A DNA stretch of 64,000 bases from a virus, in the IMG/VR virus record IMGVR_UViG_3300022074_000006, positions 62,001-126,000 of that record. One strand, 5' to 3'. Of this stretch, positions 3,360 through 38,422 are shown piece by piece (positions within the stretch are counted from its first letter, which is position 1; each line of letters begins with the position of its first letter). The notes beneath the pieces were generated by a model. The model did not search any database. It was not told the DNA's origin and was given only the letters and a program-made list of their open reading frames with translations. The position numbers were made by a program, and so were the translations under genes.

Positions 3360-4334
3360 ATGGCTTATGTTGGCGAAAAGCTTAGTTTAATTAGGAGAGC
3401 TTTCGGAAAGTCTTTAGTCGAAAAAGACGGAGTCAATGTCAACATAAAGTGCCCGAAGTGTGGCAAGCCGGGATCTGACAAGAAAAAACTAGCGATTCAG
3501 GTAGAGACAGAACAGTTTCACTGCTGGGTTTGTGGGCTTAAGGGTTCGAGTGTTGTATATCTTTTCAGAAAATATAGGCCTTCTTTTTTAGATGAAGCTT
3601 GCAAGGTATTCAACAAGAAGAAGTTCAGCAATTTTGAAGGAAAAGCTCTAGAAGAGCCTAAAAAAGATTTAGTTAAAGACTTAGAAGGGTTCGTCATGTT
3701 AGGTGATGTTAACAACATGTCAGATCCGGATCTAAAGGACGTAGCCAGGTATGCGAAGAAGAGAGGCATAACTACATCGATGATGTGGAAGTATAGGCTT
3801 GGAGCGTGTGCTGAAGGAAGAATGAGAAGAAGGCTTCTGATACCCTCTTTTGATGTAGACGGTGAGTTAAACTATTACTCTGCAAGAGAAATAGATGGTT
3901 CTTCCAGAATGAAATATATAAACGCACCAGTTCCAAAAAAAGAGGTCATCTTTAATGAACATCTTATGGACTGGTCACTTCCTGTGACTTTAGTTGAGGG
4001 CCCTGTTGATTCTATCGTTGGAGGTGAAAACACTTTGTGTCTTCTAGGCTCACACCTTTCAACTGACTCTGAAGTTTTTAAGAAAATTGTTAAAAATAAG
4101 ACAGATGTTTACTTGGCTCTAGACTTAGATGCCCAAGATAAGGCACAGAAAATTGCAAAAGATCTTTCTTCTTTTGGTATAAATGTATACGTGATTGAAT
4201 TTAAAGATGACAAGGATGTTGCTGATATCGGAGCTGCAGCCCTTAAAGAATTAAAGAAGTCCGCGTCTAGGTGGACTTCTACGGACCGGTTACTAAAAAT
4301 GATCTCAGGAATGAGGTCTGGATCTATGATTTAG
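3360..4334 (+). CDS. DnaG-like DNA primase (zinc ribbon plus TOPRIM)
   Basis: 324 residues. A zinc-binding domain at the N-terminus carries C31-x2-C34 and C55-x2-C58 (CPKC...HCWVC), as in CHC2-type primases. A TOPRIM-type catalytic region follows, with the conserved glutamate in VEGPVDS (E213) and the DxD motif in ALDLDAQD (D255, D257). It should make RNA primers for lagging-strand synthesis with the DnaB-like helicase encoded at 51577-52959, about 48 kb away, so primase and helicase are neither fused (as in T7) nor adjacent (as in T4 61/41). The ATG at 3360 follows an AT-rich stretch with no clear Shine-Dalgarno sequence. The assignment rests on both domains and is firm; length is short compared with bacterial DnaG (about 580 aa). 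Confidence 0.88.
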   Translation: MAYVGEKLSLIRRAFGKSLVEKDGVNVNIKCPKCGKPGSDKKKLAIQVETEQFHCWVCGLKGSSVVYLFRKYRPSFLDEACKVFNKKKFSNFEGKALEEPKKDLVKDLEGFVMLGDVNNMSDPDLKDVARYAKKRGITTSMMWKYRLGACAEGRMRRRLLIPSFDVDGELNYYSAREIDGSSRMKYINAPVPKKEVIFNEHLMDWSLPVTLVEGPVDSIVGGENTLCLLGSHLSTDSEVFKKIVKNKTDVYLALDLDAQDKAQKIAKDLSSFGINVYVIEFKDDKDVADIGAAALKELKKSASRWTSTDRLLKMISGMRSGSMI

Positions 4335-25319: not shown

Positions 25320-28300
25320 ATGGCTGAACAGACTTTTCGCTCTCCAGGATTTTTCGAAAACGAAATTGACCTGGCAGCAAGAGACGCCGCACCTCAAGGC
25401 GTACCAGCAGGAATCATAGGGACTGCTGAGAAGGGACCTGCATTTGTCCCAGTGACTTTGGGAAGTGTCCCCGACTTTACAACAAGGTTTGGTTCTCTTT
25501 CACCAGAGCGCTTTGGACCCTACGCAGTAAATGAATGGTTTAAGAGCAGAGGTGCATTGACTTACATGCGTGTGTTGGGCGCCGGCGCTAACTCGAGCCA
25601 GACACACTTTTCTGACACCAAGAACTTTGGAATAGTCAAGAACGCTGGATTTGTCATACCGGGTGCTTTGCCTCCCGGTGCTACAGGTGGTAATGCTAAA
25701 GCACACGAACATGTTGTGCAGTTTATCACAGCGAGACACAACTTGGCCAACACCGATGGCGGAGAAATGTTTGGCTACCCAATGTTTACTGATAACGATA
25801 GTTTTGCTGAAGAAGTCTCAGACAAGGTAAATCTCGTTCGTGGTGTTCTCTTTACAACTACAGGTTCTAGATTTGAACTCTTAAGCAACGGTGTTGCAGC
25901 TTCAACTTCCATTGTGTTCACTGGACAATCTGCCGCCAATGCAACGATCATCATCAACGATGGGTTTGGAAAATCCAGGACATATTTGGCTGCGGGTGGC
26001 AACGATGCAGGTAGCCTTCAGTTCGATAGAACTGCGGGCGCTCAAGCTGCTGGTCTCAAGCTTGCTATTGACAACACCGCCGGTCATGGAGGTGACATTA
26101 TAACAAGTGTTGATGGAAACACAATCACTTTGACAAATAGGCGGGTTGGAACAGCCGGAAATCAGAACGTAGGTGGTGTAAACCAGTCGAATATGACGAT
26201 AGCGAACAGCGGTAAGTTTGCTGGCGGAATAAACACTTTCTTTGAATACGACGTTCACAAGCATACTTTTACGACCCCGAGTGATTTTTTGAACGCCGCT
26301 AGCAGCAGGTACAAAGATGCACAATCTTACTTCAAGCTTGTTCTTTCAACTTCAGCAGGCGAGACTTTCGGTAAGGACGAAGGAAACCCGGGCGTTAGAA
26401 TACTGACTGCTTCTCTAGAGCCTACCGATCCTTACTACATCGGCAGAATTTTAAACACGGATCCTAAAAAGTTCTATCAAGAGCGTCACTTGCTCTACTT
26501 GGACTTTGCTGTTGAAAGTGAAATGGCAAAGGTTGATACAGCAGCGGGATCGATCGCACTCATGTCAGGATCAGCAAACTCTCCAGGCGATATTAGTCCT
26601 AAGTCTTTTGCCAATAGAACCTTAGACGCGACTTTCATGGAGCTGTTTGGACGATTTGACACCAGGTACACGACACCCAAGACACCTAACATCATCTCTC
26701 AGCCGTTTGGCACAAAAGAGCACGATCTCTTTCACTTTGAGACAGTGTCAGATGGTGAGTGGGGCAACTCTAAGTTCAAGGTATCAATAGCTAATGTACG
26801 TGCCTCTACAGATCCTAGAAACCCCTACGGAACTTTTGAAGTACAGCTAAGAAACTTCAATGATACCGATAAGTCACCTCAAATCTTGGAGGCCTTTCCA
26901 AACTGTACACTCAATCCTCACGACGATAGATACGTTGCAAAACAAATCGGGGATTACAAGGTTCGATGGAACCACGATGCAGAAAACCCGGCAGAACGTC
27001 GTCTGGTTGTGAAGGGGAAGCATCCTAATAGATCACACAGATTTAGAATTGTAATGAACCAGGGAATCGAGGACGGAAACGTTCCTAAGAACGCACTTCC
27101 TTTTGGGTTTAGAGGAATGGAAGTACTCAGGACTTCTGACTCTCTTACAGACAAGATTGATACAAATCTATTCTTCCGAAACGGAGCTAAGGCAGGTGTT
27201 CTTGCAGCAGACGGAGGTGTGGTAAGAATCGATGGAGATCTAGGAGGTCATCAGATACACAAAGCTTCGATCATTCCGCCCTTACCTTTTAGATTTAAAG
27301 TAACAAAGGACGCAGTTGAAAATGTTGGTGTTGGAGCCGACGCCGGGAAGAATTTCATCCCGTCAAATGATAAGTACGTCGGTCGTCCAGGCCAAAATGA
27401 GAGAGTAGACTCTCGATTCTACTGGGGTGTTAAGACAACTCGTTTACCCATAACAGCTTCTTTGCCAGCCGGAGAGATGTCTAACGCTGTCTTGAGGTCA
27501 AATGACAGCAGCAATCTTAACCCTCTTGTCAAGGCTTACACAAAGATGCACGGCATCGGCAAGATGGGAACTTTGATTACCGGATCTGCAGCGGATGAAT
27601 TTAATGACAACAAGTTTACTTTAGCCCGAGTAGCTTTGGAGAATAGCCTAGGAGGTAATAAGCTGGAGACAGTTGTGACAGGAACATCTAGGCAGCACAT
27701 GCTCCAAGCAGTTTACGTTAGAAACGGCCACCCTAATTCTACTAACTACACGATCACAGATCGAAGCAGTTTTAAGACTGATAGAATTACAATGGCAACC
27801 CTTGTAAATTCTTCTTCGGTAATCTTCAATAGGTTTACTGAATACTGCAAGTTTACAACCGTATTCCAGGGTGGCTTTGATGGAACCAATATCCTAAGCC
27901 GAGATGGCTATTACATGACTGACAAGGCTGCATCAAGTGACCCCGGTGGGCATGCCCTTGACGTCCCGGGCGGAGATTGCTACCAAGGGCTTGCACATCT
28001 AGTTGCAGGCGCTGGAGGTAGAAACAGTGTTGTTAGCTCATTTAAGACAGCAACCCGGATCATGACCGATCCAACAACTGTCAGGCTTAACCTGCTTGCA
28101 ATCCCGGGAATGAGAGACCCTGACATCGTTAATGATGCACAGGAAAGAGTCAAGGATTACGGGTTGGCAATGTATGTCATGGACTTGAGAAACTACGACC
28201 AGGACACTAAGCGCCTCTATGACGACTCCAAAAAGAAGCCAGATGTTAGAATCACAGCTGAGCAATTCGAAGGAGAGGCAATCGACAACAATTACAGCGC

Positions 28301-28913
28301 GACTTACTTCCCCGATGTATACATTCGAGACGAAGCGAATAATCGACCTGTAAAGGTTCCAGCTTCCGTGGCTGCGATTTCCGCGCTAGGATTTAACGAT
28401 AGAGTCGGATTCCCATGGTTTGCGCCTGCAGGCTTCAATAGAGGATCTCTTGCTTCTGTGACCAACGTTCACACGCGTCTTTCTTCTGCAGATAGGGACG
28501 AACTCTACGATGTTCGAATTAATCCAATTGCAGTTTTCCCAACAGGAAGATTTGTGATATTCGGTCAAAAGACGCTGCAGCAGGCTAAGTCTGCACTTGA
28601 TCGTGTAAACGTTCGAAGGCTTCTCCTAGAAGTCAAGAGAAGAGTTTCCGGCGTTGCAAGAAAGCTTCTTTTTGAGGCAAACGACGCGCAGACACGTGCA
28701 AGGTTCGTAGGTGAAGTTGCACCACAGCTTGCAACAATTCAGGCTCAAGCAGGAGTCGAAAGATTTGCAGTTGTCTGTGACGGAACAAACAACACATCGG
28801 TTGACGAAGAAGAAAACCGAATGAACGGTAGGATAGTAATAGTTCCGACGCTTGCTGTAGAGTTCATTGCACTGGACTTTATTGTTACAAGTGCTGGTGT
28901 ATCCTTCGAGTAA
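25320..28913 (+). CDS. Tail sheath protein 1 (gp18-like), very long
   Basis: 1197 residues. The N-terminus (FRSPGFFENEIDLAAR, then GVPAGIIGTAEKGPAFVPVTLGS in part) and the C-terminal domain (SALDRVNVRRLLLEVKRRV, then IQAQAGVERFAVVCD) are the conserved sheath core that forms the contractile helix. A large variable middle makes it almost twice T4 gp18 (659 aa). Residues about 193-305 contain a module (LKLAIDN...GHGGDI...ITLTN...GTAGN...FAGG) also found in the protein at 1-2769 and not evident in the next sheath gene. A paralogue follows directly at 28964. Well-supported sheath family; the role of the insertions (surface decoration of the tail) is inferred. Confidence 0.92.
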   Translation: MAEQTFRSPGFFENEIDLAARDAAPQGVPAGIIGTAEKGPAFVPVTLGSVPDFTTRFGSLSPERFGPYAVNEWFKSRGALTYMRVLGAGANSSQTHFSDTKNFGIVKNAGFVIPGALPPGATGGNAKAHEHVVQFITARHNLANTDGGEMFGYPMFTDNDSFAEEVSDKVNLVRGVLFTTTGSRFELLSNGVAASTSIVFTGQSAANATIIINDGFGKSRTYLAAGGNDAGSLQFDRTAGAQAAGLKLAIDNTAGHGGDIITSVDGNTITLTNRRVGTAGNQNVGGVNQSNMTIANSGKFAGGINTFFEYDVHKHTFTTPSDFLNAASSRYKDAQSYFKLVLSTSAGETFGKDEGNPGVRILTASLEPTDPYYIGRILNTDPKKFYQERHLLYLDFAVESEMAKVDTAAGSIALMSGSANSPGDISPKSFANRTLDATFMELFGRFDTRYTTPKTPNIISQPFGTKEHDLFHFETVSDGEWGNSKFKVSIANVRASTDPRNPYGTFEVQLRNFNDTDKSPQILEAFPNCTLNPHDDRYVAKQIGDYKVRWNHDAENPAERRLVVKGKHPNRSHRFRIVMNQGIEDGNVPKNALPFGFRGMEVLRTSDSLTDKIDTNLFFRNGAKAGVLAADGGVVRIDGDLGGHQIHKASIIPPLPFRFKVTKDAVENVGVGADAGKNFIPSNDKYVGRPGQNERVDSRFYWGVKTTRLPITASLPAGEMSNAVLRSNDSSNLNPLVKAYTKMHGIGKMGTLITGSAADEFNDNKFTLARVALENSLGGNKLETVVTGTSRQHMLQAVYVRNGHPNSTNYTITDRSSFKTDRITMATLVNSSSVIFNRFTEYCKFTTVFQGGFDGTNILSRDGYYMTDKAASSDPGGHALDVPGGDCYQGLAHLVAGAGGRNSVVSSFKTATRIMTDPTTVRLNLLAIPGMRDPDIVNDAQERVKDYGLAMYVMDLRNYDQDTKRLYDDSKKKPDVRITAEQFEGEAIDNNYSATYFPDVYIRDEANNRPVKVPASVAAISALGFNDRVGFPWFAPAGFNRGSLASVTNVHTRLSSADRDELYDVRINPIAVFPTGRFVIFGQKTLQQAKSALDRVNVRRLLLEVKRRVSGVARKLLFEANDAQTRARFVGEVAPQLATIQAQAGVERFAVVCDGTNNTSVDEEENRMNGRIVIVPTLAVEFIALDFIVTSAGVSFE

Positions 28914-28963: not shown

Positions 28964-31900
28964 ATGACAGAATCAACTTCACAAGCCGCAGGCGTAAGAT
29001 CTGCAGAATTAGATCTCAGCGGCCCAACATCAGTTCAGCCTTCTGGTGTGCCAGCAGCTGTTGTTGGGACTTCCACCAAGGGGCGAGCATTTTTACCGAT
29101 GACTTTTGCAACAGTCCAGGACTTTGAAAGAGAGTTCGGAAAAGCTGATGGCAAGCACTTTGGCCCGTTGGCAGTTCATGAATGGATGAGAAATGCTCGA
29201 GCTGGTACGTTTGTTAGAGTCCTAGGTGTAGGCGACGGTAAACAAAGAAGTTCTGTCAATGGTACTGTCAACAAAGCTGGATTCGTTGTCGGAAACGAAC
29301 AAATTCAGCTCTCTACAACGCTAGTAGGACCTAATCTTTCAGCATATGGTGGAACAGATGCCAGACAGGGACTTTCTGGTCGAACTTATTTTCTAGGTGC
29401 ATATATGGAGCCGGCGGGCAGTACATTTACTGATGCAGGCATCACCGCTGTTGGCGTTGACAAGCACGAGCCGATTCTAAGAGGTGTTTTGATGGTGCCG
29501 TCCGGCGTCGTTCCTACGTTGAGTAGTAGTTTTAGAACCCACGGTCAGAATGATACTCCTCTCGGAGCCGTCATACCAAGGATTGCTAACAAAAACAACA
29601 CGTTCCTTAACGATCAAACTGTTACCGGCGTTAAAGGCGGCGCTTTTGGCGATATCAGTGCAGCCGGAGAATTCGTTTTGCTCCTAAACGGATTCAAAGC
29701 CACAGCTGAAAACCCGGGAATCATATCAGCGTCTTTTGACAGATCAGCAGGTAAAACCTTTCTTGGTAAAGCACTCAATACAGACCCAACAAAAATAGAA
29801 AAGTTAGGCCACTATCTTTACACCTACTATGACATTCATCCATCGATTGCCAAGGTTACGACCGATGTGACAAAGATTAAAGATCTAGGCGCTGCAGCAG
29901 ATCAGGCAGCTGGTGCTGGATTTACTGCAAAGTGTTTCATACTTTCAGGCGCTGGAGATTCGAACTCTTTTAATGCAGGAGGAACTAGGCCTAACTATGA
30001 AAATTTTGAGGAAAGATTCCAGACAGCTAAGTCACCTTTCGTGATATCGCAAAAGTTTGGCTCTTCACCTAAAAACCTGTTTAGGTTTCACCAGCTTGAT
30101 GACGGCGCTCTCAATGAACTCGATCGGGTCAAGATCACCATAGAGAACATTAAGGCATCAACAGCAACATACGATGACTTCGGAACATTTGATGTCCTGG
30201 TCAGAAAAATGGCTGATATAGACACAGATCGAAAGGTGATCGAAAGATACACAGCATGTAACTTAGATCCTACTTCTGACGACTATATCGCAAGAAAGAT
30301 TGGTGATTTTCACTTGTTCTACGACTTCGACAGAAGAGAAGGATCACAGAGAATACGTCACGAAGGGCTGTATCCGAATGTTTCAGCGAGAATAAGAGTT
30401 GAAATGCATCCTGACGTTGAGAACGAAGTCATCGAAAAGCGAGCAATACCTTGCGGATTTAGAGGAGCACCTCACTTGCTCACAAGAATGGATGACCCAA
30501 ATAAGCCAGTCTTGCTCAACGCGGTCGGAGGAGACGCCGCCGACGCGACTGCCACTGACACCCACGGCGTGGAAGCTCGTGAGATCGGAGCAGGCGGAGC
30601 ACTCGGAGCGACTGATGCACTTCGAAGTGTAGGACTAACTCGAATGATCGAGCTTCCTATTCCAATGAGAGAGAACCTTCTCAAAGACGACTTAAAGACT
30701 GTCAATTCAAGTTTCACATGGGGCATGCAGTTTGAAAGAAAGGTCAACGTCTCTAAGCCGAACTCTGGTAAAACAATGGACGACACGTGGAACAGCTTTG
30801 TAAAGTTCTTTCCACAAGACACGCTTAGAAATCCTGGATTTCAGGTCTTCGATAACGAGGGAACTGCGAAGAAAGACGGAGTCGAATACGATTGTGACGT
30901 CTTCAACAACAATCTGTTTACTCTAGAGAGAGTCCAGGTTGTCACAGGTGCCTTTGATTTGCCAGATGTCAACAAATGGGACGCGGCAGTCTATAGAAGA
31001 AACGGTGTCAAGACTATTCTTACAGACAAAGACGGAAAAACCCACTCAGCTGCAGACACAAGATTTTTAGATCCATCTAAGGACTTTAAACCGGGTGATA
31101 ATTCCACTCAATACCTTGGATTTACTATGACACTTTTTGGTGGATTTGATGGAAACAACATTTTCAACAAAGAGCGGGCTAAAATGACAGACTACGCTGC
31201 ACGTCTTGAGATGGAAAATCCAAGCATGGCAGGAAATTCTGAGAACACTATTGCTTCTTTCAAGAAAGCGATTGATGTACTGACAGAAAGATCAGATTCC
31301 GATATTCAGCTTTTGGCAATACCTGGCATGAGACACCCAGCGATCACCAACCATGGTATCGACGCTGTTGAAAATAGATTTGACGCGATGTACATAATAG
31401 ACATTGAGGAAATGGATCTAGACAACGTAGTTCTAACTGGGTCTAACATCGACACAGAAGGTCAGCTAATTTCAGTCGAAAACACGGTGAGAAGGCTTCG
31501 AAACAGAAATCTTGATACATCATTCGCGGCAGCTTACTTTCCTGACGTGACGATTGAAAAGCCAGGGTCAACGCAGACTGTCGACGTTCCCCCATCAGTA
31601 GTTGTTCTTGGAGGATTCTCCTTGAATGACTCAGTTGCTCATCCTTGGTTCGCTCCTGCAGGTTTTGCCAGAGGTAGGTTGACAACAACAGTTCGTGGTA
31701 ACGTCAATCTCAACACAGAAAACTTAGATATTCTGTACGATTCTGACATAAACCCATTGAGGCCACATCCTCAGCATGTTGAAGACGGAGTCGTTATGTG
31801 GGGACAGAAGACATTGCTTCAGGCATCTTCTGCTCTAGATAGAGTAAACGTTAGAAGATTGTTGATTGACATCAGACGCAAGGTGAAAGCAGTTGCTTTT

Positions 31901-32149
31901 AACTTCCTGTTCGAACCAAATAGAGAAGATACCCTCGCGTCCTTCTCAGCGCTTGTTACGCCTATACTTAGCAACGTCCAGGCTCAAAGAGGTGTGTCTC
32001 GATTCAAGGTCCAAATAGACACCTCTACGACTACCCAGGCGGATGTCGAGAACAACACAATTAGAGGAAAGATATTCTTGCAGCCAATCAGATCGCTTGA
32101 GTTCGTTGAGCTCACTTTCGTTGTTGCAAATCAGGGAGCTGAAATTTAA
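28964..32149 (+). CDS. Tail sheath protein 2 (gp18-like paralogue)
   Basis: 1061 residues, ATG after CAGGAG. It repeats the architecture of the preceding gene: N-terminal GVPAAVVGTSTKGRAFLPMTF (cf. GVPAGIIGTAEKGPAF), FGPLAVHEWMRNARAGTFVRVLG (cf. FGPYAVNEWFKSRGALTYMRVLG), the HPWFAPAGFARG block, and C-terminal SSALDRVNVRRLLIDIRRKV and NVQAQRGVSRFKVQ. It lacks the roughly 110-residue module found in sheath 1. It appears intact, with the core regions conserved, so both copies are probably made. It may co-assemble with sheath 1, or one copy may form a distinct region of the tail. Confidence 0.9.
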   Translation: MTESTSQAAGVRSAELDLSGPTSVQPSGVPAAVVGTSTKGRAFLPMTFATVQDFEREFGKADGKHFGPLAVHEWMRNARAGTFVRVLGVGDGKQRSSVNGTVNKAGFVVGNEQIQLSTTLVGPNLSAYGGTDARQGLSGRTYFLGAYMEPAGSTFTDAGITAVGVDKHEPILRGVLMVPSGVVPTLSSSFRTHGQNDTPLGAVIPRIANKNNTFLNDQTVTGVKGGAFGDISAAGEFVLLLNGFKATAENPGIISASFDRSAGKTFLGKALNTDPTKIEKLGHYLYTYYDIHPSIAKVTTDVTKIKDLGAAADQAAGAGFTAKCFILSGAGDSNSFNAGGTRPNYENFEERFQTAKSPFVISQKFGSSPKNLFRFHQLDDGALNELDRVKITIENIKASTATYDDFGTFDVLVRKMADIDTDRKVIERYTACNLDPTSDDYIARKIGDFHLFYDFDRREGSQRIRHEGLYPNVSARIRVEMHPDVENEVIEKRAIPCGFRGAPHLLTRMDDPNKPVLLNAVGGDAADATATDTHGVEAREIGAGGALGATDALRSVGLTRMIELPIPMRENLLKDDLKTVNSSFTWGMQFERKVNVSKPNSGKTMDDTWNSFVKFFPQDTLRNPGFQVFDNEGTAKKDGVEYDCDVFNNNLFTLERVQVVTGAFDLPDVNKWDAAVYRRNGVKTILTDKDGKTHSAADTRFLDPSKDFKPGDNSTQYLGFTMTLFGGFDGNNIFNKERAKMTDYAARLEMENPSMAGNSENTIASFKKAIDVLTERSDSDIQLLAIPGMRHPAITNHGIDAVENRFDAMYIIDIEEMDLDNVVLTGSNIDTEGQLISVENTVRRLRNRNLDTSFAAAYFPDVTIEKPGSTQTVDVPPSVVVLGGFSLNDSVAHPWFAPAGFARGRLTTTVRGNVNLNTENLDILYDSDINPLRPHPQHVEDGVVMWGQKTLLQASSALDRVNVRRLLIDIRRKVKAVAFNFLFEPNREDTLASFSALVTPILSNVQAQRGVSRFKVQIDTSTTTQADVENNTIRGKIFLQPIRSLEFVELTFVVANQGAEI

Positions 32150-32156
32150 TTCAGCT
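32137..32156 (+). other. Hairpin across the stop codon of sheath 2
   Basis: Perfect 7-bp inverted repeat AGCTGAA / TTCAGCT with a 6-nt loop containing the TAA stop. No T-run follows, so it is not a standard terminator. It might stabilise the mRNA 3' end or damp readthrough. Confidence 0.35.
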
Positions 32157-32158
32157 GC

Positions 32159-32165
32159 ATACTTA
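32159..32165 (+). promoter_or_regulatory. Putative promoter motif (ATACTTA)
   Basis: Copy of the ATAYTTA motif, 38 nt before ATG 32203 of the tail tube gene, immediately after the hairpin at 32137-32156. Confidence 0.35.
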
Positions 32166-32202
32166 TTAAATGCCCAGAACGATTTTTAAGGAGTAAAAAC
32201 AA

Positions 32203-32691
32203 ATGGCAGATACATTAAACGTCTCGGAGATGTTACCCAACAAGTTCGAGCCCAAGAGAAAGTTTCGTTGGGTTTTCGCTATCGAGGGTATTGACAGCTT
32301 TCTGTTAAAGACGGCAGCGAGACCTGCCGTAACCACTGCAGAAATTGAAGTTCCGTTCATCAACGCGACACGATACATTGCAGGCAAAACAAAGTTTGAG
32401 CAAATCAACTTGACGCTTCACGATCCGATCGCACCATCTGGAGCGCAGCAGGTCATGGAGTGGGTAAGAACTCACTATGAGTCAGTTTCAGGCCGGTCTG
32501 GATACGCTGATTTCTATAAGAGAGATTGTCAGCTTAAGATGTTGGACCCAGTAGGTACTGTTGTTGAGCTTTGGGACATGAAGGGGTGCTTCATAACAAG
32601 CGCTAACTTCAACGATCTTGACTACGCAGCAGACGATGCAGTTGAGATTTCACTCACCCTCCGATACGACAACTGCATCCTCCAGTACTAA
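32203..32691 (+). CDS. Tail tube protein (gp19-like)
   Basis: 162 residues, ATG after TAAGGAG. Length and pattern match T4 gp19 (163 aa): an N-terminal KRKFRWVFAIEGIDSFLLKT strand pair, EVPFINATRYIAGKTKFEQI (about 47-66), INLTLHDPI and the C-terminal beta strands (DAVEISLTLRYDNC). It polymerises into the inner tube around which the sheath contracts. It follows the sheath genes as in T4 (18-19) and is closed by a terminator at 32717. One tube protein for two sheath proteins is notable. Confidence 0.92.
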   Translation: MADTLNVSEMLPNKFEPKRKFRWVFAIEGIDSFLLKTAARPAVTTAEIEVPFINATRYIAGKTKFEQINLTLHDPIAPSGAQQVMEWVRTHYESVSGRSGYADFYKRDCQLKMLDPVGTVVELWDMKGCFITSANFNDLDYAADDAVEISLTLRYDNCILQY

Positions 32692-32716
32692 TATCTTACA
32701 ACGTTCTGGAAAAGAT

Positions 32717-32740
32717 AAAGGGCGCCTTGTGCGCCCTTTT
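32717..32740 (+). terminator. Rho-independent terminator after tail tube gene
   Basis: 9-bp stem AAAGGGCGC / GCGCCCTTT with a CTTGT loop; the 3' side runs into four T and then CT. Ends the neck-sheath-tube unit. Confidence 0.85.
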
Positions 32741-32828
32741 CTGTGTCAAAAAATAGTTTACTCTTAACAAAAGCGGTATTTATTTAAATGTACTTGACTG
32801 TATTCACACATAGGAGGACTCGAGTTTA

Positions 32829-33683
32829 ATGAGCGACGAAAGACAGACAAAGAACGAAGTATTTACGGCGTCGGACGCCCAAAGGCAGGGAATACAAACT
32901 AGAAACGTGGCGGCAGAAGACTTCGGTCTAGAGATTCCTGTTGAAACTGTTCCCCTCCCGTCTGGAGGCAAGACTTATCCTGAAGGCACAAACTTGCATA
33001 ATGCAACAACCGTTCAGATAAAGGCAATGACAGCTCGCGAAGAAGATATTCTCACTTCAAGAGCACTGATCAAGAAGGGCACAGTTATTGAAACTCTCGT
33101 CAAGTCATGCATGATAGATAAGTCATTTGATGTTGGTGACATGTTGTCCGGCGATAGAAATGGAATTATGACAGCTATTAGGATCACTGGTTATGGTGCA
33201 GAATACACTGTCGATGTTGAGTGTCCAGAATGTGGAGAAAAAAGCAAGCAAGATTTTAACCTTGCCGACTTGCCTATCAACACACTAAACATTGATCCCT
33301 TGATAAGCGGTGAAAACATCTTTGAGTTTCAGCTCCCAATCACCAAGAAAAAAGTTCACTTTAAGTTCTTGACAGGAAAAGACGAACAAGAAATCACTAC
33401 CATCGCAGAGAGAAAGAAAAAGAAGGGAATCCTAAACGAGAACTCAGTGACTACTCGGCTTAGACATTCTATCATGTCTATAGACGGTGTTACAGACAAG
33501 AATAAGATCGGGCTTTTTGTAGGGAATATGCCTGCCAGAGATTCTCTCGCTCTTAGAAAGTTTATCGACAAGAACGAGCCGGGAATTGACATGAAGTCTT
33601 GGATGGAATGCCCACACTGCTCAGAACACTCGGAGGTGCGCCTTCCCATGGGCGCCTCGTTTTTTTGGCCTGACACCGAGTGA
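32829..33683 (+). CDS. Zinc-binding baseplate-hub assembly / tail-assembly chaperone-like protein
   Basis: 284 residues, AGGAGG about 12 nt before the ATG. Two cysteine pairs, C132-x2-C135 (ECPECGEKS) and C261-x2-C264 (ECPHCSEHS), could bind one zinc. The N-terminal part has VPLPSGGKTYPEG and the helix MTAREEDILTSRALIKKG, a pattern I associate with T4 gp26/gp51-type baseplate assembly proteins. It ends GASFFWPDTE. The gene lies between tail tube and tape measure, the place of tail-assembly chaperones in other phages. A seven-T run at 33660-33666 near its end, and an open coding frame continuing in the +1 frame, suggest a frameshifted longer product of about 360 residues. Confidence 0.7.
   Translation: MSDERQTKNEVFTASDAQRQGIQTRNVAAEDFGLEIPVETVPLPSGGKTYPEGTNLHNATTVQIKAMTAREEDILTSRALIKKGTVIETLVKSCMIDKSFDVGDMLSGDRNGIMTAIRITGYGAEYTVDVECPECGEKSKQDFNLADLPINTLNIDPLISGENIFEFQLPITKKKVHFKFLTGKDEQEITTIAERKKKKGILNENSVTTRLRHSIMSIDGVTDKNKIGLFVGNMPARDSLALRKFIDKNEPGIDMKSWMECPHCSEHSEVRLPMGASFFWPDTE
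33660..33666 (+). promoter_or_regulatory. Candidate programmed frameshift site (T7 run)
   Basis: The 0 frame reads TCG TTT TTT TGG. A +1 or -2 slip on the T run leads into a frame that reads on without a stop from GGC 33667 to 33915. The peptide right after the slip (GLTPSDKEIYLEPIFIL) looks coding well before the first ATG of that frame at 33718. Alternatively the run contains a sequencing or assembly length error. Confidence 0.5.
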
Positions 33684-33717
33684 TAAAGAAATCTACTTAG
33701 AGCCTATTTTTATACTC

Positions 33718-33915
33718 ATGTATTATTTGGGCTTTACGTACGACAATGCTTATAACCTTCCTGTCTGGAAGCGGGCTTGGTTCCTAGAGCGATTGATGAA
33801 AGAAATTACCAGGAACCAAGTGACCAAAGAAACCGTCAATGATCCGATGCATGCATCGATGGTCGGAAAACAAAGAACAGATCGAGCACCTGCCAGGCTG
33901 AGACGCTTCACTTAG
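33718..33915 (+). CDS. Downstream frame of the tail chaperone-like gene (possible frameshift extension)
   Basis: If translated alone from ATG 33718 it gives 65 residues (MYYLGFTYDNAYNLPVWKRA and on), but no ribosome binding site precedes this ATG. The same frame is open back past 33667 and looks coding there, overlapping the end of the 284-residue gene. The likely product is therefore a C-terminal extension of about 82 residues joined by a +1 (or -2) ribosomal shift at 33660-33666. This resembles the G-GT arrangement of lambda and the analogous chaperone pairs known in many tailed phages just before the tape measure gene. The content (YNLPVWKRAWFLERLMKEI) is helical and conserved-looking. Confidence 0.6.
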   Translation: MYYLGFTYDNAYNLPVWKRAWFLERLMKEITRNQVTKETVNDPMHASMVGKQRTDRAPARLRRFT

Positions 33916-33918
33916 GTA

Positions 33919-33925
33919 ATACTTA
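33919..33925 (+). promoter_or_regulatory. Putative promoter motif (ATACTTA)
   Basis: Copy of the ATAYTTA motif, 28 nt before ATG 33953 and just after the chaperone-like frame ends. Confidence 0.3.
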
Positions 33926-33952
33926 TATTAGTATGTTAATGTGGAGTACAAA

Positions 33953-34198
33953 ATGTCGTTACGGGGCACGCTCAGAAAATACACAGCTGAGTTCCTTGAA
34001 GGCAAAAGAAGCCTTAACGAATGTTTTGTGCCTGAAGTTAGCTGGGCAATTCTTCGAAGAGTTTTGCTTACAGAAAAGATGTCTCGGGCAGCAACTTTTG
34101 AAAAAAGAAATCCGTGCAGAGCGGAAAAGAAAAGAGCAGAAGCTAGATTCTGGCTATCAACCGGAATTAAGTGGTCTGATATCGTGAAGGGTGTGTAA
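33953..34198 (+). CDS. Small hypothetical protein before the tape measure gene
   Basis: 81 residues. I prefer ATG 33953, 7 nt after GGAG, over the in-frame GTG 33941. A mixed helical basic protein: FLEGKRSLNECFVPEVSWAI (residues 13-32), then RVLLTEKMSRAATFEKR and the end FWLSTGIKWSDIVKGV. No recognised motif. It lies between the chaperone-like gene and the tape measure and overlaps neither; the tape measure starts at the next base after its stop. Probably a tail-assembly factor by position. Confidence 0.55.
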   Translation: MSLRGTLRKYTAEFLEGKRSLNECFVPEVSWAILRRVLLTEKMSRAATFEKRNPCRAEKKRAEARFWLSTGIKWSDIVKGV

Positions 34199-37100
34199 GT
34201 GGCAAACACTGAAGATCTAAAAGGCCAACTAGAGATTACTAACGCACTTAACGCTGCGCTAGAACGCCAGATCTCTCTTCAGAACAAGTTGGTTTCTGGG
34301 ATGAGCCGCCAGCATTCGATGATGAAAGATATCTGTGCAGCCGGACAAAAATCTTGTGGACAGCTTGACAAGCAAAAGAAGGGCCAGAGAGATCTTACTA
34401 AAGAACTCGAGAACACAAAAGAAGCTCAAAAAGATTTAATGACTGCTATGGGACAAGGCGGTTCTGCTGCCCTTAAAGGGACGCAGGGGATAAAGAAAGC
34501 CTTCGGTGGCCTCAAGAACTTTTTGTTTTCCTGGAAAGGGATGGTTGTCGGTCTTTTCGGAGGATTAATCGCCGGCGTTGGAAAAATATTCTCAGGGCTT
34601 ACAGGGATTGTCAAGGGAGTTTTCTCTGCCATAACCAGCATCGTCAAGGTCGGAATGGGTGTCATCAAGGGTCTGATCATGGCACCGTTTAAGCTCATAG
34701 GTTCGTTCAACAACATAGCAAATGAGCTGCGTAGAATTTCCGTCGTGATTAACGGAGCGCGCCAATCTGTCAACGGAATGATCGGAGATCATAAGTCGCT
34801 GGGCAGTGTGACCTCTGAAGCCTACAAGAAAGCGCGTCAAGCAGTGAGCACACTTCCGGGTGGAGTATTTGGGCCGAGAGAGCAAGGTGCTGCAGAAAGA
34901 ATAAAGCTCGCCGGGGAACTTGTCAAAGCATTCGGACCGTATCAATCTTCTCTAGCCAAGCTCAGCAATGCAGGAGCTAAGTTTGCGATACAGATGAAGA
35001 AAAACCTAGGGTTTACTGACGAACAGTTTCAGCAGATCACAAAAACGTCTAAGGCGTTCGGATCAGACCTCAATCAAGACTTCAAGGAAATCACACTAGG
35101 AATTCAGTCTGTTTCGAAAGAAGCAGGTTTGAACATAAAGACAATGAGCCAAGATTTCATGATATTCCATGGAAAACTCAAGCCCTTGACTAACATGACC
35201 AATAAGCAGCTGCTCACGATGACCGCCACGTTTGGAAGACTGGGGATATCGGGTGACAAAGCAATGTCCATGTTTGATAAGTTTGAAACTCTAGAAGGGG
35301 GTGCTGAGGTTGTCACTCGAATGCAAAGGTCCCTCGGAATATCCTTAAGTCAGACAGACATGATCATGTCTCGAGGCGACCCACTCAAGCAAATGAAGTT
35401 GGTTCAGGAAGCTATGAAGCGATCTGGAAGAGCTTTCGAAGATCTTTCTTATGATGGCAAGAAGATGATCACCGAAATGTTTGGTGGTGATTCAAATGCT
35501 GCAATGTCAGCTTTTAGCCGTGCTGGAATGGAGACCACTGACTCTATTGAGAAAGCAGCCAAAGCCGCGCAAAAAGCGAAAGACGCTAGAGACGTTCCGA
35601 AGTTGCTTCAGAAGCTGAACAAGAGCATTGAGGGAGTTGCTGACAGTTTCGGTAAAATCATGAAGCCGTTCGAAGCTTTCATGAAGGGCATGACTTACGG
35701 TCTTGGGGGTACGAAAATCTCTAAGGGAATGATGGAAATCTCTAGGATCTTTGAAAAGATGGGCAAAGCTTTTGGTACAATGTTGGGCGACAGAAAGGTT
35801 TTTGACAAGCTCATCGACTCGTCTGTTGCCTTTGCTGAAAAGCTCAAAAACATTATGCCGCTTGTTGGGGATCTCATTGATGCCATGTTTTTTGACTCAA
35901 AAGAATCAGTATTTTCTGTTCTAAGTAAGCTGGGTGGTGAGATCTTAGGGAGCTATGGGGCTTTCTATAACGGTATAATCCCCATGTTGATTAAAGGCGT
36001 AGGGCTCGTTGTTCCCATGTTCATTAAAGCATTTGCTTTTGTGACCAACGCTTTTAACGAAATGCTCTTGTCTGTCATGGATCCGAATAGTCCTTCTTTG
36101 GGTAAAAGACTTAAAGAGATGAGCTCAGGAATATTTGACAGCATGGAATTGGACACTCCCGGAATGGCTTCAGCTGCTCAAGAAGCTGGAAAGAGAATCG
36201 GTGATTCTTTCGAAAACGAATTCGAGTCAAAGAAGATGAGAAAAATTTTCGACAAAAAGAAAGGGAAGTTTATTACAAAGTCCATGAGTCTAGGGGCAGC
36301 ATTCGGAGAAAACATCTTGGAAGGCCTTAGGCGTGTAGGAAATGCTCTCGCTAAGTTTTTCGGTGAAGTTTTTAAGCGCGGCATGGCTTACCTCTGGCAG
36401 GAGTACAAGTTTTGGATCATAGGGTACTTGAGCTTGAGAGTCTTTGGTCCTTCCTTGGTAAAAGCATTTATGACAAGTGGCGCAGCGAGTGGTTTTCTTA
36501 GCATGATGAAGGCCGGAGGCCTTGCGCTGGTGGGCGCAGCAAAGTCAGGCTTAGCCGCTCTAGGAGCCACTGGGGCCGGCGCATCTGCTGGTGCCGCTTT
36601 CGGGGTCAGTGGTGGTGTAGCCGCTGGTGCAGCCTTAGGAGGATCTGTCCTGGCAGCAGGAGCTGGCGGCTACATGGCAGGGAAAGCATTAGACAATCAT
36701 TTCAAGCTTTCCACCAGGATTGCAGACTACTTTTCGGGGCTAGGCTGGAGATCGAGAGAAGAGCTTAAAGCAGAAGAGAAGAAAAACGCAGATTATTTCA
36801 GCGCTCGCCGCGCCAGACTTGAAAAGATGAAGTTTGAGACCGACGCAGAAAAGCAGTTTGACGAAATTGTCAAGATGACATCATCGGTGACAACTCCGGA
36901 GCAGATCAAGCTCTTGCAAAAAAGAGTGGAACTCGACCAGCAGATGACAATCAGAGAGCGAGAACACATCCAGACACTCGTTGAAAAGAGAGCGGCCGAA
37001 ATTGAAAGTCAAAGAATCACAGCAGAGGGAGCCAACAAGGCAGAAGCTGCCATAGGAGGAAAATCAGGAGCGAAAGCGCTTTTGAAGGCTGCAGGAATAA

Positions 37101-38422
37101 CATCCGGCATAGGAACCCGAAGAACCGATTCGGGCGGATTTCAGCTCGCATCTGTTGACGAAAATGAAAGTAGTCAACTTGCCATCCTCGAATCTGCCGC
37201 GTCCCAGATAGCATTATCCCTTCAGACGCAGCAGCAAGCGTCTGAAGCGATGCAGAAGAGCAACGCCGACTTCCAATCCGGAAAAAAGACCCTGGACGAG
37301 CACAGAGCATTCGCCGCTAGTTACGCTACAACGTACGATACCGCTAATGATCTCATAAAAAGTGCAGCTGAAACGGCCGGAATAACCTCCAAAGAGCAAC
37401 AGGCAGCTTTCGTGAACATGGTAAAAGTTTCTCAGGACGCACTTGAGAAAAGAGGTGACTACAACGTGTTCAAGAAAGATCCAAAGACAGGGAAGGTCAT
37501 TGGGAGGCAGACAGTGGATCCGATGGCAGCCGCCGCCGCCTCAAATGTGCTCATGAACCTCCGTAATGCCTCAGAACGAGTTGACCCTACTACAATGGCA
37601 GCCATCAACGCTGCACTTAAGCTTTCTGCAGCTCCATCAAGCAGAGAAGCTCTTAGTGCTGTTGCTGAACTAAGGCTCTCTGAGGCAAAGCTTAAAGAAT
37701 TGCAGCTTGAAAAATTCATACCTCAGATTAAAAAAGTCGAATCAACGCTGAAGCAGACACAGGTAGTGAGAGGCCAGACATCAGACAATGTCCAGGCAGC
37801 CGCCGCGACTGCATCAAAAGGTGGCAAATCTGGACCAGGAGGTATCAAAGTTCCCGAAGGTCCTGCTTCTCTAGATCCAAAAAAGCTGAAAGTCCAAGGT
37901 CAGAAAGCAGGCAAAAAAGCCTCAATAAGAGTACAAAAACTAAAAGCTGCAGAAAGGCTGAGCAGGCTTCCTACAACAGTTTTGCGACTTCTAGCTAGCA
38001 AGTCAAAGACCAAGATGATGCTCGACGGGGGGCTACAGATGACAACAGTGCTTCAGAACATGATGCCCGCAGCCGATGGAGTTACTAAGTCTCTTAACAC
38101 TGCTGCGATTCCTGCTCTACAAAACACAGCTACAGCAGCCCGCACTGCAACGGCTGCTCTAGGAACTACAGTTATCATGCTCGACCACGTTCGTGACAGA
38201 ATGAATCAGATTCAGATAATCTACGCTAAGATCGCTACTGCAGTCGCCAAGGTGAGGCGAGACGGCAGCTATATGCTTAAAGGAAAGCACAAGGTCGCTA
38301 TCGGAGCAGAAGGAACTAATAAGTTTACACTAAACGTGAATGTCACGATGGATTCCAAGGAACTCGCGATAGCAGCGAGAAAGACGTCCATCGTTGCTGA
38401 TTTACCAGTAGGGACACCATGA
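34199..38422 (+). CDS. Tail tape measure protein (gp29 role)
   Basis: 1407 residues, GTG start immediately after the previous stop. It has the make-up of a tape measure: long helical stretches (N-terminal 100 residues with heptads), a hydrophobic glycine-rich region at about 104-168 (MVVGLFGGLIAGVGKIF), a second at about 759-830 very rich in Ala/Gly, and a Lys/Ala-rich C-terminal third. The gene follows tube and chaperone-like genes. Tape measures set tail length and may form the membrane channel during DNA ejection. At 1407 residues it is 2.4 times T4 gp29 (590 aa), which predicts a tail roughly twice as long as T4's or longer. Identification is by size, composition and order, not by close sequence match. 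Confidence 0.8.
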   Translation: MANTEDLKGQLEITNALNAALERQISLQNKLVSGMSRQHSMMKDICAAGQKSCGQLDKQKKGQRDLTKELENTKEAQKDLMTAMGQGGSAALKGTQGIKKAFGGLKNFLFSWKGMVVGLFGGLIAGVGKIFSGLTGIVKGVFSAITSIVKVGMGVIKGLIMAPFKLIGSFNNIANELRRISVVINGARQSVNGMIGDHKSLGSVTSEAYKKARQAVSTLPGGVFGPREQGAAERIKLAGELVKAFGPYQSSLAKLSNAGAKFAIQMKKNLGFTDEQFQQITKTSKAFGSDLNQDFKEITLGIQSVSKEAGLNIKTMSQDFMIFHGKLKPLTNMTNKQLLTMTATFGRLGISGDKAMSMFDKFETLEGGAEVVTRMQRSLGISLSQTDMIMSRGDPLKQMKLVQEAMKRSGRAFEDLSYDGKKMITEMFGGDSNAAMSAFSRAGMETTDSIEKAAKAAQKAKDARDVPKLLQKLNKSIEGVADSFGKIMKPFEAFMKGMTYGLGGTKISKGMMEISRIFEKMGKAFGTMLGDRKVFDKLIDSSVAFAEKLKNIMPLVGDLIDAMFFDSKESVFSVLSKLGGEILGSYGAFYNGIIPMLIKGVGLVVPMFIKAFAFVTNAFNEMLLSVMDPNSPSLGKRLKEMSSGIFDSMELDTPGMASAAQEAGKRIGDSFENEFESKKMRKIFDKKKGKFITKSMSLGAAFGENILEGLRRVGNALAKFFGEVFKRGMAYLWQEYKFWIIGYLSLRVFGPSLVKAFMTSGAASGFLSMMKAGGLALVGAAKSGLAALGATGAGASAGAAFGVSGGVAAGAALGGSVLAAGAGGYMAGKALDNHFKLSTRIADYFSGLGWRSREELKAEEKKNADYFSARRARLEKMKFETDAEKQFDEIVKMTSSVTTPEQIKLLQKRVELDQQMTIREREHIQTLVEKRAAEIESQRITAEGANKAEAAIGGKSGAKALLKAAGITSGIGTRRTDSGGFQLASVDENESSQLAILESAASQIALSLQTQQQASEAMQKSNADFQSGKKTLDEHRAFAASYATTYDTANDLIKSAAETAGITSKEQQAAFVNMVKVSQDALEKRGDYNVFKKDPKTGKVIGRQTVDPMAAAAASNVLMNLRNASERVDPTTMAAINAALKLSAAPSSREALSAVAELRLSEAKLKELQLEKFIPQIKKVESTLKQTQVVRGQTSDNVQAAAATASKGGKSGPGGIKVPEGPASLDPKKLKVQGQKAGKKASIRVQKLKAAERLSRLPTTVLRLLASKSKTKMMLDGGLQMTTVLQNMMPAADGVTKSLNTAAIPALQNTATAARTATAALGTTVIMLDHVRDRMNQIQIIYAKIATAVAKVRRDGSYMLKGKHKVAIGAEGTNKFTLNVNVTMDSKELAIAARKTSIVADLPVGTP

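Follow-up and report, generated by a model that had tools for sequence, protein, structure and literature searches.

A strongly conserved +1 frameshift signal predicted in a phage tail assembly chaperone gene of the T4 gp26/gp51 type

Results

Sequence comparison indicates that a T4-type tail assembly chaperone gene carries a real and strongly conserved +1 programmed frameshift signal, and that other relatives obtain the same protein pair by a -1 slip or from two genes. From this one gene the phage very probably produces a tail helper protein in two versions, by a +1 slip at seven Ts. We hold the explanation as a whole, a T4-type chaperone gene whose +1 slip would add a long form of 361 residues to a short form of 284, with high confidence. 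That slippage occurs, its ribosomal direction, its rate and the chaperone role are what we infer from the sequences.

A second coding frame at the end of the gene

The gene lies in the window, the whole stretch of 64,000 nucleotides that was analysed, and is the sole PF12322 match in the 133,292-base IMG/VR virus record. A check of the window's ORFs recovered the zero-frame ORF (Table 1), with seven Ts at 33660-33666 near its 3' end. The +1 frame is uninterrupted from this run to a TAG at 33913-33915. Its earliest ATG, at 33718, lies 51 nt (17 codons) beyond the junction and, on inspection by eye, has no Shine-Dalgarno-like sequence immediately 5' of it. The open +1 frame before the junction contains no ATG, GTG or TTG in the window. 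A single +1 step would give a 361-residue fusion, ...LPMGASFF-GLTPSDKEIYLEP... The first-pass annotation had placed the gene end at 33683, the T run and the end of the +1 frame at these same positions, and all of its coordinates hold, as does its description of the ATG at 33718 as lacking a ribosome binding site (again by eye). Its estimate of about 360 residues for the shifted product is met by the computed 361.

The substitution pattern indicates that the +1 frame already codes for protein ahead of its first ATG, as had been proposed. Between 331 pairs of relatives, 58% of the differences in shifted-frame codons 5-16, which precede that ATG, fell in third positions, against an expectation of one third without coding. 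The same measure gave 58% for codons 17-40 of the shifted frame and 62% for the undisputed zero frame upstream.

Table 1. Coordinates of the gene, its predicted frameshift features and its neighbours in the window
Feature	Position	Strand	Basis or remark
Tail tube protein	32203..32691	+	phrog_4542, E=6.5e-33; Pfam gp19 slightly under cut-off
Zero-frame ORF, predicted short tail assembly chaperone	32829..33683	+	284 aa; PF12322 (T4 gp26/gp51 family)
Predicted frameshift fusion, long chaperone form, putative T4 gp51 counterpart	32829..33915	+	361 aa; hhalign, AF2
GGAGGTG, perfect Shine-Dalgarno-like heptamer inside the gene	33632..33638	+	25-31 nt before the slip codon; conserved with codon bias
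Predicted slip site TTT_TTT_TGG, then C	33660..33668	+	YTT_TGG conserved in +1 relatives
C-terminal T-like domain in the +1 frame, GLTPSDKEIYLEPIFILMYYLGF...	33667..33915	+	82 codons plus TAG; no start of its own before 33718
Small ORF between chaperone and tape measure	33941..34198	+	85 aa; no Pfam match
ORF in the tape measure place	34199..38422	+	1407 aa; position and size; no Pfam family

Genes around the locus

The order of tube, PF12322 gene, short ORF(s) and tape measure was alike in the window and in phage isolates. The locus had been described as lying between tail tube and tape measure, and this stands, with the tube identified by PHROG and the tape measure by position and size only. 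The equivalent of the 34199..38422 ORF is annotated as tape measure in two relatives (L002 and L169), and small ORFs occupy the place of the 85-residue ORF in L001 and L003. Two very long sheath-like genes stand in tandem upstream, at 25320-28913 (1197 aa) and 28964-32149 (1061 aa); PF17482, the sheath C-terminal domain, matches both, at E ~5e-6 in the first and ~7e-6 in the second, where the score is slightly under the cut-off. An Rfam scan of 32000-35000 returned nothing beyond a chance-level SraG (E=0.55). There are no tRNA genes in the window, so no window-borne tRNA accounts for the slip site.

Relatives with a second frame in +1 or -1

Loci were collected with the window's protein as query (80, from IMG/VR), with a profile of twelve relatives (80, on contigs partly shared with the first set), from bacterial and archaeal assemblies (19, probably of phage origin in many cases, where the MAG contigs are short) and with cyanophage gp26 as query (80). 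Queries with XacN1 gp26 found no match among viral contigs and those with SP-15 gp26 found one locus only, 100% identical. Six divergent phage records were also inspected: Microcystis Mel-JY01, Flavobacterium immuto, two huge-phage genomes, Bacillus SP-15 and Streptococcus GXN1. In all six the PF12322 ORF ends near a Phe-Phe or Phe-Leu motif where another frame continues, +1 in five and -1 in L004. A joined gene was annotated in none of the annotated divergent records, and later records were the same; the downstream piece was absent, named hypothetical or begun at an arbitrary codon.

The +1 frame was open for at least 187 nt beyond the zero-frame stop in 79 of the 80 loci found with the window's protein (L028 ends 12 nt after the stop). 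Of 79 loci that have a stop, all but three keep the +1 frame open over at least 133 nt; the exceptions are L136, which is -1, and the contig-edge loci L147 and L165. All 80 cyanophage-type loci have T_TTT_TTC, one codon and then a stop; the -1 frame continues for 173-200 nt in 78 of them, and the contig ends first in L222 and L245.

To classify the relatives, we made a profile of the C-terminal (T) domain from 80 +1 peptides and searched it against the peptides of the three frames that follow each gene. Even the unrefined profile recovered 35 -1 peptides at E<1e-3. Once iterated, it classed 280 ORFs as 180 +1, 91 -1 and 9 none, which clustering at 90% identity reduced to 229 (145 +1, 76 -1, 8 none) and clustering at 50% to 47 (28 +1, 13 -1, 6 none). 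Since classes were assigned by the domain behind the gene and not by the slip motif, the slip-site counts are non-circular except where stated. L132 and L194, with no stop within the contig, were dropped. L028, L147 and L222, ending 12, 23 and 43 nt after the stop, were counted as none; the profile also gave none for L174, L175, L192, L193, L282 and L284, where by eye L174 and L175 are -1 and L192 and L193 are +1. Across the window's wide clade, the short frame thus lies in the same relative frame behind the T run, the outcome looked for in homologues.

Slip sites of the two classes

The +1 junction is UUU or CUU followed by U or C in 145/145 relatives. At 90% clustering, YTT_TGG is exact in 136 of the 145, preceded and begun as TTT_TTT (114), TTT_CTT (17) or TTC_TTT (5). 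The next codon in the other nine is TAC (2), CGC (2), CTA, CAC, CGT, AGT (after TTT_TTT) or TTC. Elsewhere in the +1 and -1 ORFs, across 54,997 codons, YTT_TGG was absent and T_TTT_TTN occurred six times. The -1 class has T_TTT_TTN in 74/76 relatives, L136 having A_AAT_TTC and L198 no heptamer; a canonical in-phase -1 heptamer with its product in the -1 frame was thus found in 75/76. The window has no such arrangement, with G before its run and the domain in the +1 frame. It does have the prfB-type slip codon YUU_U, with UGG in the A site.

The two classes differ in the base that precedes the Phe codons. With the amino acids kept the same, T would be expected there at 56.7 of the 136 +1 sites and G or C at 45.9; the observed counts are 3 and 125. 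The base is T in 80/80 cyanophage-type loci, which were listed regardless of heptamer, against a background of about 65%. Nominal p-values for these biases are inflated by relatedness; 50% clusters keep 18 G/C, 2 T and 2 A among 22 +1 sites. Since this base lies outside the shifted reading, its bias reads as avoidance of -1 slippage, with G or C before the +1 run apparently keeping the heptamer T_TTT_TTT from forming.

Possible starts and an upstream Shine-Dalgarno-like motif

Alternatively, the T domain could be a small gene of its own, reached by translational coupling or through a weak start within the last part of the gp26-like gene. Annotators drew it so in relatives, and some ATG, GTG or TTG lies upstream in the +1 frame in 71/145 +1 relatives. 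However, only 22 of these relatives have an ATG there (123/145 have none), 74/145 lack all three codons in the open +1 frame, as does the window, and in 127/145 no candidate start is accompanied by an SD-like sequence. Downstream, the first start lies at a median of codon 17. Even when CTG, ATT, ATC and ATA were added to ATG, GTG and TTG, 53 of the 136 YTT_TGG loci had no possible start upstream in the open +1 frame. In the -1 class 73/74 lack an upstream start, a weaker test as the median first downstream start there is codon 4.

Codon choice in the +1 class is strongly biased towards TCG_GAG_GTG at -33 to -25, where GAG is used for 81/98 Glu, against 40%, and GTG for 45/94 Val, against 14%. 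SD-like 8-mers peak at starts of -34 to -31, and there is no peak at prfB spacing; a prfB-type Shine-Dalgarno 3 nt upstream of the slip is absent. The distance matches neither prfB nor dnaX. We considered the motif as an internal initiation signal for the T domain and rejected this, as it is kept at loci without any possible start (45/53) as commonly as at those with ATG, GTG or TTG (56/67). The -1 class favours an SD-like GAG_GGN in codons -15 to -10 (GAG for 44/66 Glu, against a 31% background), at about the spacing of dnaX. Downstream RNA structure, in at most 40 loci per class, was weak in the +1 class (z -0.55, against -0.17 in the control) and somewhat stronger in the -1 class (z -1.41, against -0.58).

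Apparently separate arrangements were nevertheless seen in some relatives, and they count towards a separate gene. L198 (Pseudomonas phage Cygsa01) and L284 (Vibrio phage D495) have a T-like ORF at a TAATG overlap, around 3309 and 3172 respectively, and L282 (Kuttervirus SP1), around 3325, has no ATG and only an ATT overlapping the stop. None of the three has a -1 heptamer, and they possibly represent a third, coupled arrangement with a separate ORF at the stop codon. L283, L285 and L286 combine a stop/start overlap with a -1 heptamer. ORFs named 'baseplate hub assembly catalyst' in L195 (3232-3369), L285 (3214-3375) and L286 (3193-3372) correspond to the C-terminal domain of the frameshift product and begin at an internal ATG or a stop/start overlap. 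The first-pass annotation had named in-frame or separate versions as what would speak against a shift. Such versions exist in distant relatives, T4 gp51 being an in-frame fusion that nonetheless adjoins gp26, and do not point to a sequencing error in the window. For the window's gene a separate start would leave the near-invariant YTT_TGG site without a reason, and given the conservation of the +1 and -1 sites across relatives we regard it as very unlikely.

Direction and nature of the slip

A -2 shift would enter the same frame as +1 with one extra residue; the predicted junction peptides are LPMGASFFGLTPSDK for +1 and LPMGASFFFGLTPSDK for -2. Shifts of -2 occur in phage tail genes, for example in phage Mu, and a seven-T run permits re-pairing both ways. 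The broken-run variants do not: TTT_CTT_TGG and TTC_TTT_TGG, found at 22/136 sites, allow re-pairing one base forward on UUU but not two back, and the same holds for TTT_CGC, TTT_CAC and TTT_CGT in distant relatives. UUU_CGU is described as a proven +1 site in another system (PMC3498833). Of the two directions left by the first-pass annotation, +1 is therefore favoured over -2, and we give -2 slightly less credence than the separate start.

Seven Ts is short for transcriptional slippage, which would generate mRNAs of differing length from the run. Although A or T runs are described as classic sites of it (PMC3711429), TTT_CTT_T and TTC_TTT_T interrupt the run and keep the shifted frame, making this explanation more improbable still. 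A homopolymer length error, the alternative raised at the outset, would be plausible in an error-prone run where six Ts in place of seven give one long ORF, but it is excluded by the same frame relation in 145/229 non-redundant loci from many metagenomes and isolates, independent assemblies having the same seven Ts and several a broken run or no long run.

Family membership and homology to T4 gp26 and gp51

The zero-frame protein matched Pfam T4_baseplate (PF12322; E=7e-19, 68.8 bits against a cut-off of 24.5) and phrog_150 (E=6e-22), and the 361-aa fusion scored 66.6 bits against PF12322. T4 gp26 (E=8.8e-64) and gp51 (E=3.9e-52, residues 1-201 of 249) both belong to this family, gp51 carrying about 48 extra C-terminal residues beyond the PF12322 part. 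PHROG 634 takes in both the cyanophage T peptide (E=9.1e-30) and the C-terminal part of gp51 (1.2e-23).

Profile comparison with hhalign, in which five reversed controls gave prob 0.1-0.4, aligned the T domains of the +1 and -1 classes with each other (prob 97.6, E=4.6e-12), indicating that they are homologous. The -1 T domain aligned with the gp51 C-terminus (prob 97.1, E=6.6e-11) and the -1 fusions with the gp51 family over 244 columns (prob 99.3, E=3.9e-20). The match of the +1 fusions to the gp51 family was weaker (prob 59.6, E=8.9e-5). Compared directly with the gp51 C-terminus, the +1 T domain gave an insignificant result (prob 2.1), so its link to gp51 goes via the -1 class. From the hhalign and PHROG matches, gp51 appears to be the counterpart of the long form and gp26 of the short, with end-to-end similarity clear for the -1 class and weak for +1. 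PRFect cites Vladimirov et al. 2022 in terms that fit this correspondence, for which we claim no priority. The earlier proposal of a frameshift in a tail-assembly gene is supported by a conserved site, frame and domain in what is probably a gp26/gp51-type chaperone gene.

An AlphaFold2 model of the fusion had a mean pLDDT of 80, with values of about 90 across most of the gp26 part. The T domain, modelled without aligned relatives, showed helices at 283-299, 304-308 and 312-336 with pLDDT mostly 50-72, and lower values beyond. Among viral models, 60 matched the fusion at E<=0.001, and gp26-type proteins, that of SP-15 for example, ranked close to the top. Foldseek against the PDB found none at this threshold, the HK97 chaperone 2ob9 scoring E=3.2 (prob 0.15), and hence no significant match to the fold of classic chaperones. 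The T domain (33667-33912) weakly matches DUF6760 (PF20546), below the cut-off (E=0.0086 for the peptide, 0.083 for the fusion). DUF6760 presumably belongs to contractile injection systems, and a link to these is possible.

Switches of direction within the family

On a quick tree of 56 gp26-type proteins, taken without a root, the +1 and -1 labels need at least four changes; L174, L175 and L192 were labelled by eye and L198 (-1 by profile) was set to separate. Strongly supported branches force at least two changes for +1 and at least three for -1, each against all other rows including the three separate records. Long branches make the deep placements on this tree unsure. One switch is local. 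The -1 relative L136 is nested in a supported +1 group, indicating a change of direction there. At about 3455-3690 its Phe-Phe is TTC_TTC, with no open +1 frame, the heptamer A_AAT_TTC and the T domain in -1.

Discussion

In the explanation we favour, most ribosomes would stay in the zero frame as far as the stop codon ending at 33683 and so produce the short form of 284 residues, which resembles T4 gp26. A smaller share would slip one base forward at TTT_TTT_TGG. With tRNA-Phe on UUU in the P site and UGG, the zero-frame A-site codon, waiting, the tRNA would re-pair with the overlapping UUU one base downstream, after which GGC would be read next. The resulting long form, of 361 residues, would resemble T4 gp51 in carrying an additional helical domain at its C-terminus. 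If lambda gpG/gpGT is a guide, the tape measure may be coated by many short and few long forms, which would also bring in tail tube subunits.

The kind of system is known. As reported by PRFect (PMC10885494), Vladimirov, Gautam and Davidson 2022 (Virology 566:9-15) described one short and one longer, fused gene in T4-like phages. The title of that paper refers to a mechanism other than frameshifting in T4-like phages, and the Adele paper (PMC12846349) refers to it on the subject of poly-T signals for -1 slips in T4-like chaperone genes. The two-gene arrangement of T4 is already published. T4 gp26 and gp51 belong to the same PF12322 family, as a short form without and a long form with the C-terminal domain; T4 uses two genes, whereas the window's phage would use one gene with a predicted +1 slip. 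The +1 variant, its near-invariant site, the repeated direction switches and the conserved SD-like motif were not found in the open-access literature searched, in which Vladimirov 2022 was represented by citing papers.

Other systems share parts of this arrangement. Lambda gpG/gpGT, described in a 2016 review (PMC5009743), likewise lies before the tape measure gene and yields short and long forms from one gene, with the C-terminal domain in the other frame, but slips -1 at a different site, the opposite direction to the window. The haloarchaeal myovirus HSTV-2, from a different virus group, has a tail frameshift at the equivalent place that is called 'very likely +1' (PMC5009743). At the prfB site CUU_UGA_C (consensus YTT_TRA_C, PMC3711429), YUU is followed by U, the P-site tRNA re-pairs to UUU, the A-site codon is slow and a C follows. 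The window's site differs in having the sense codon UGG and not a stop, in lacking the Shine-Dalgarno 3 nt upstream and in being structural, not autoregulatory. In Bacillus phage 0305phi8-36, gp143/gp144 were proposed as a two-gene chaperone equivalent to lambda G/GT without a frameshift, like T4 (PMC2147016).

Taken further, the data would describe a new bacterial +1 signal, made up of YUU_UGG_C at a sense codon, a G/C guard and the upstream SD-like sequence, together with several direction switches in one family; we put this forward tentatively, as doubtful but possible. The guard base would then block -1 slippage, and the SD-like sequence, about one ribosome footprint upstream, may pause or queue ribosomes, unlike the prfB mechanism.

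The 2016 review calls tail-gene frameshifting widespread 'except T4' (PMC5009743). Across the broader gp26/gp51 family, the sampled loci indicate that frameshifting is the rule, in both directions, and with its two genes T4 appears to answer the same requirement in another way. In current annotations the long form is truncated, or its C-terminal part is entered as 'baseplate hub assembly catalyst' or 'hypothetical protein'; the site motifs are a simple means of correcting this. Relatives of opposite direction differ at so few bases near the site that the family lends itself to testing what determines the direction of the slip.
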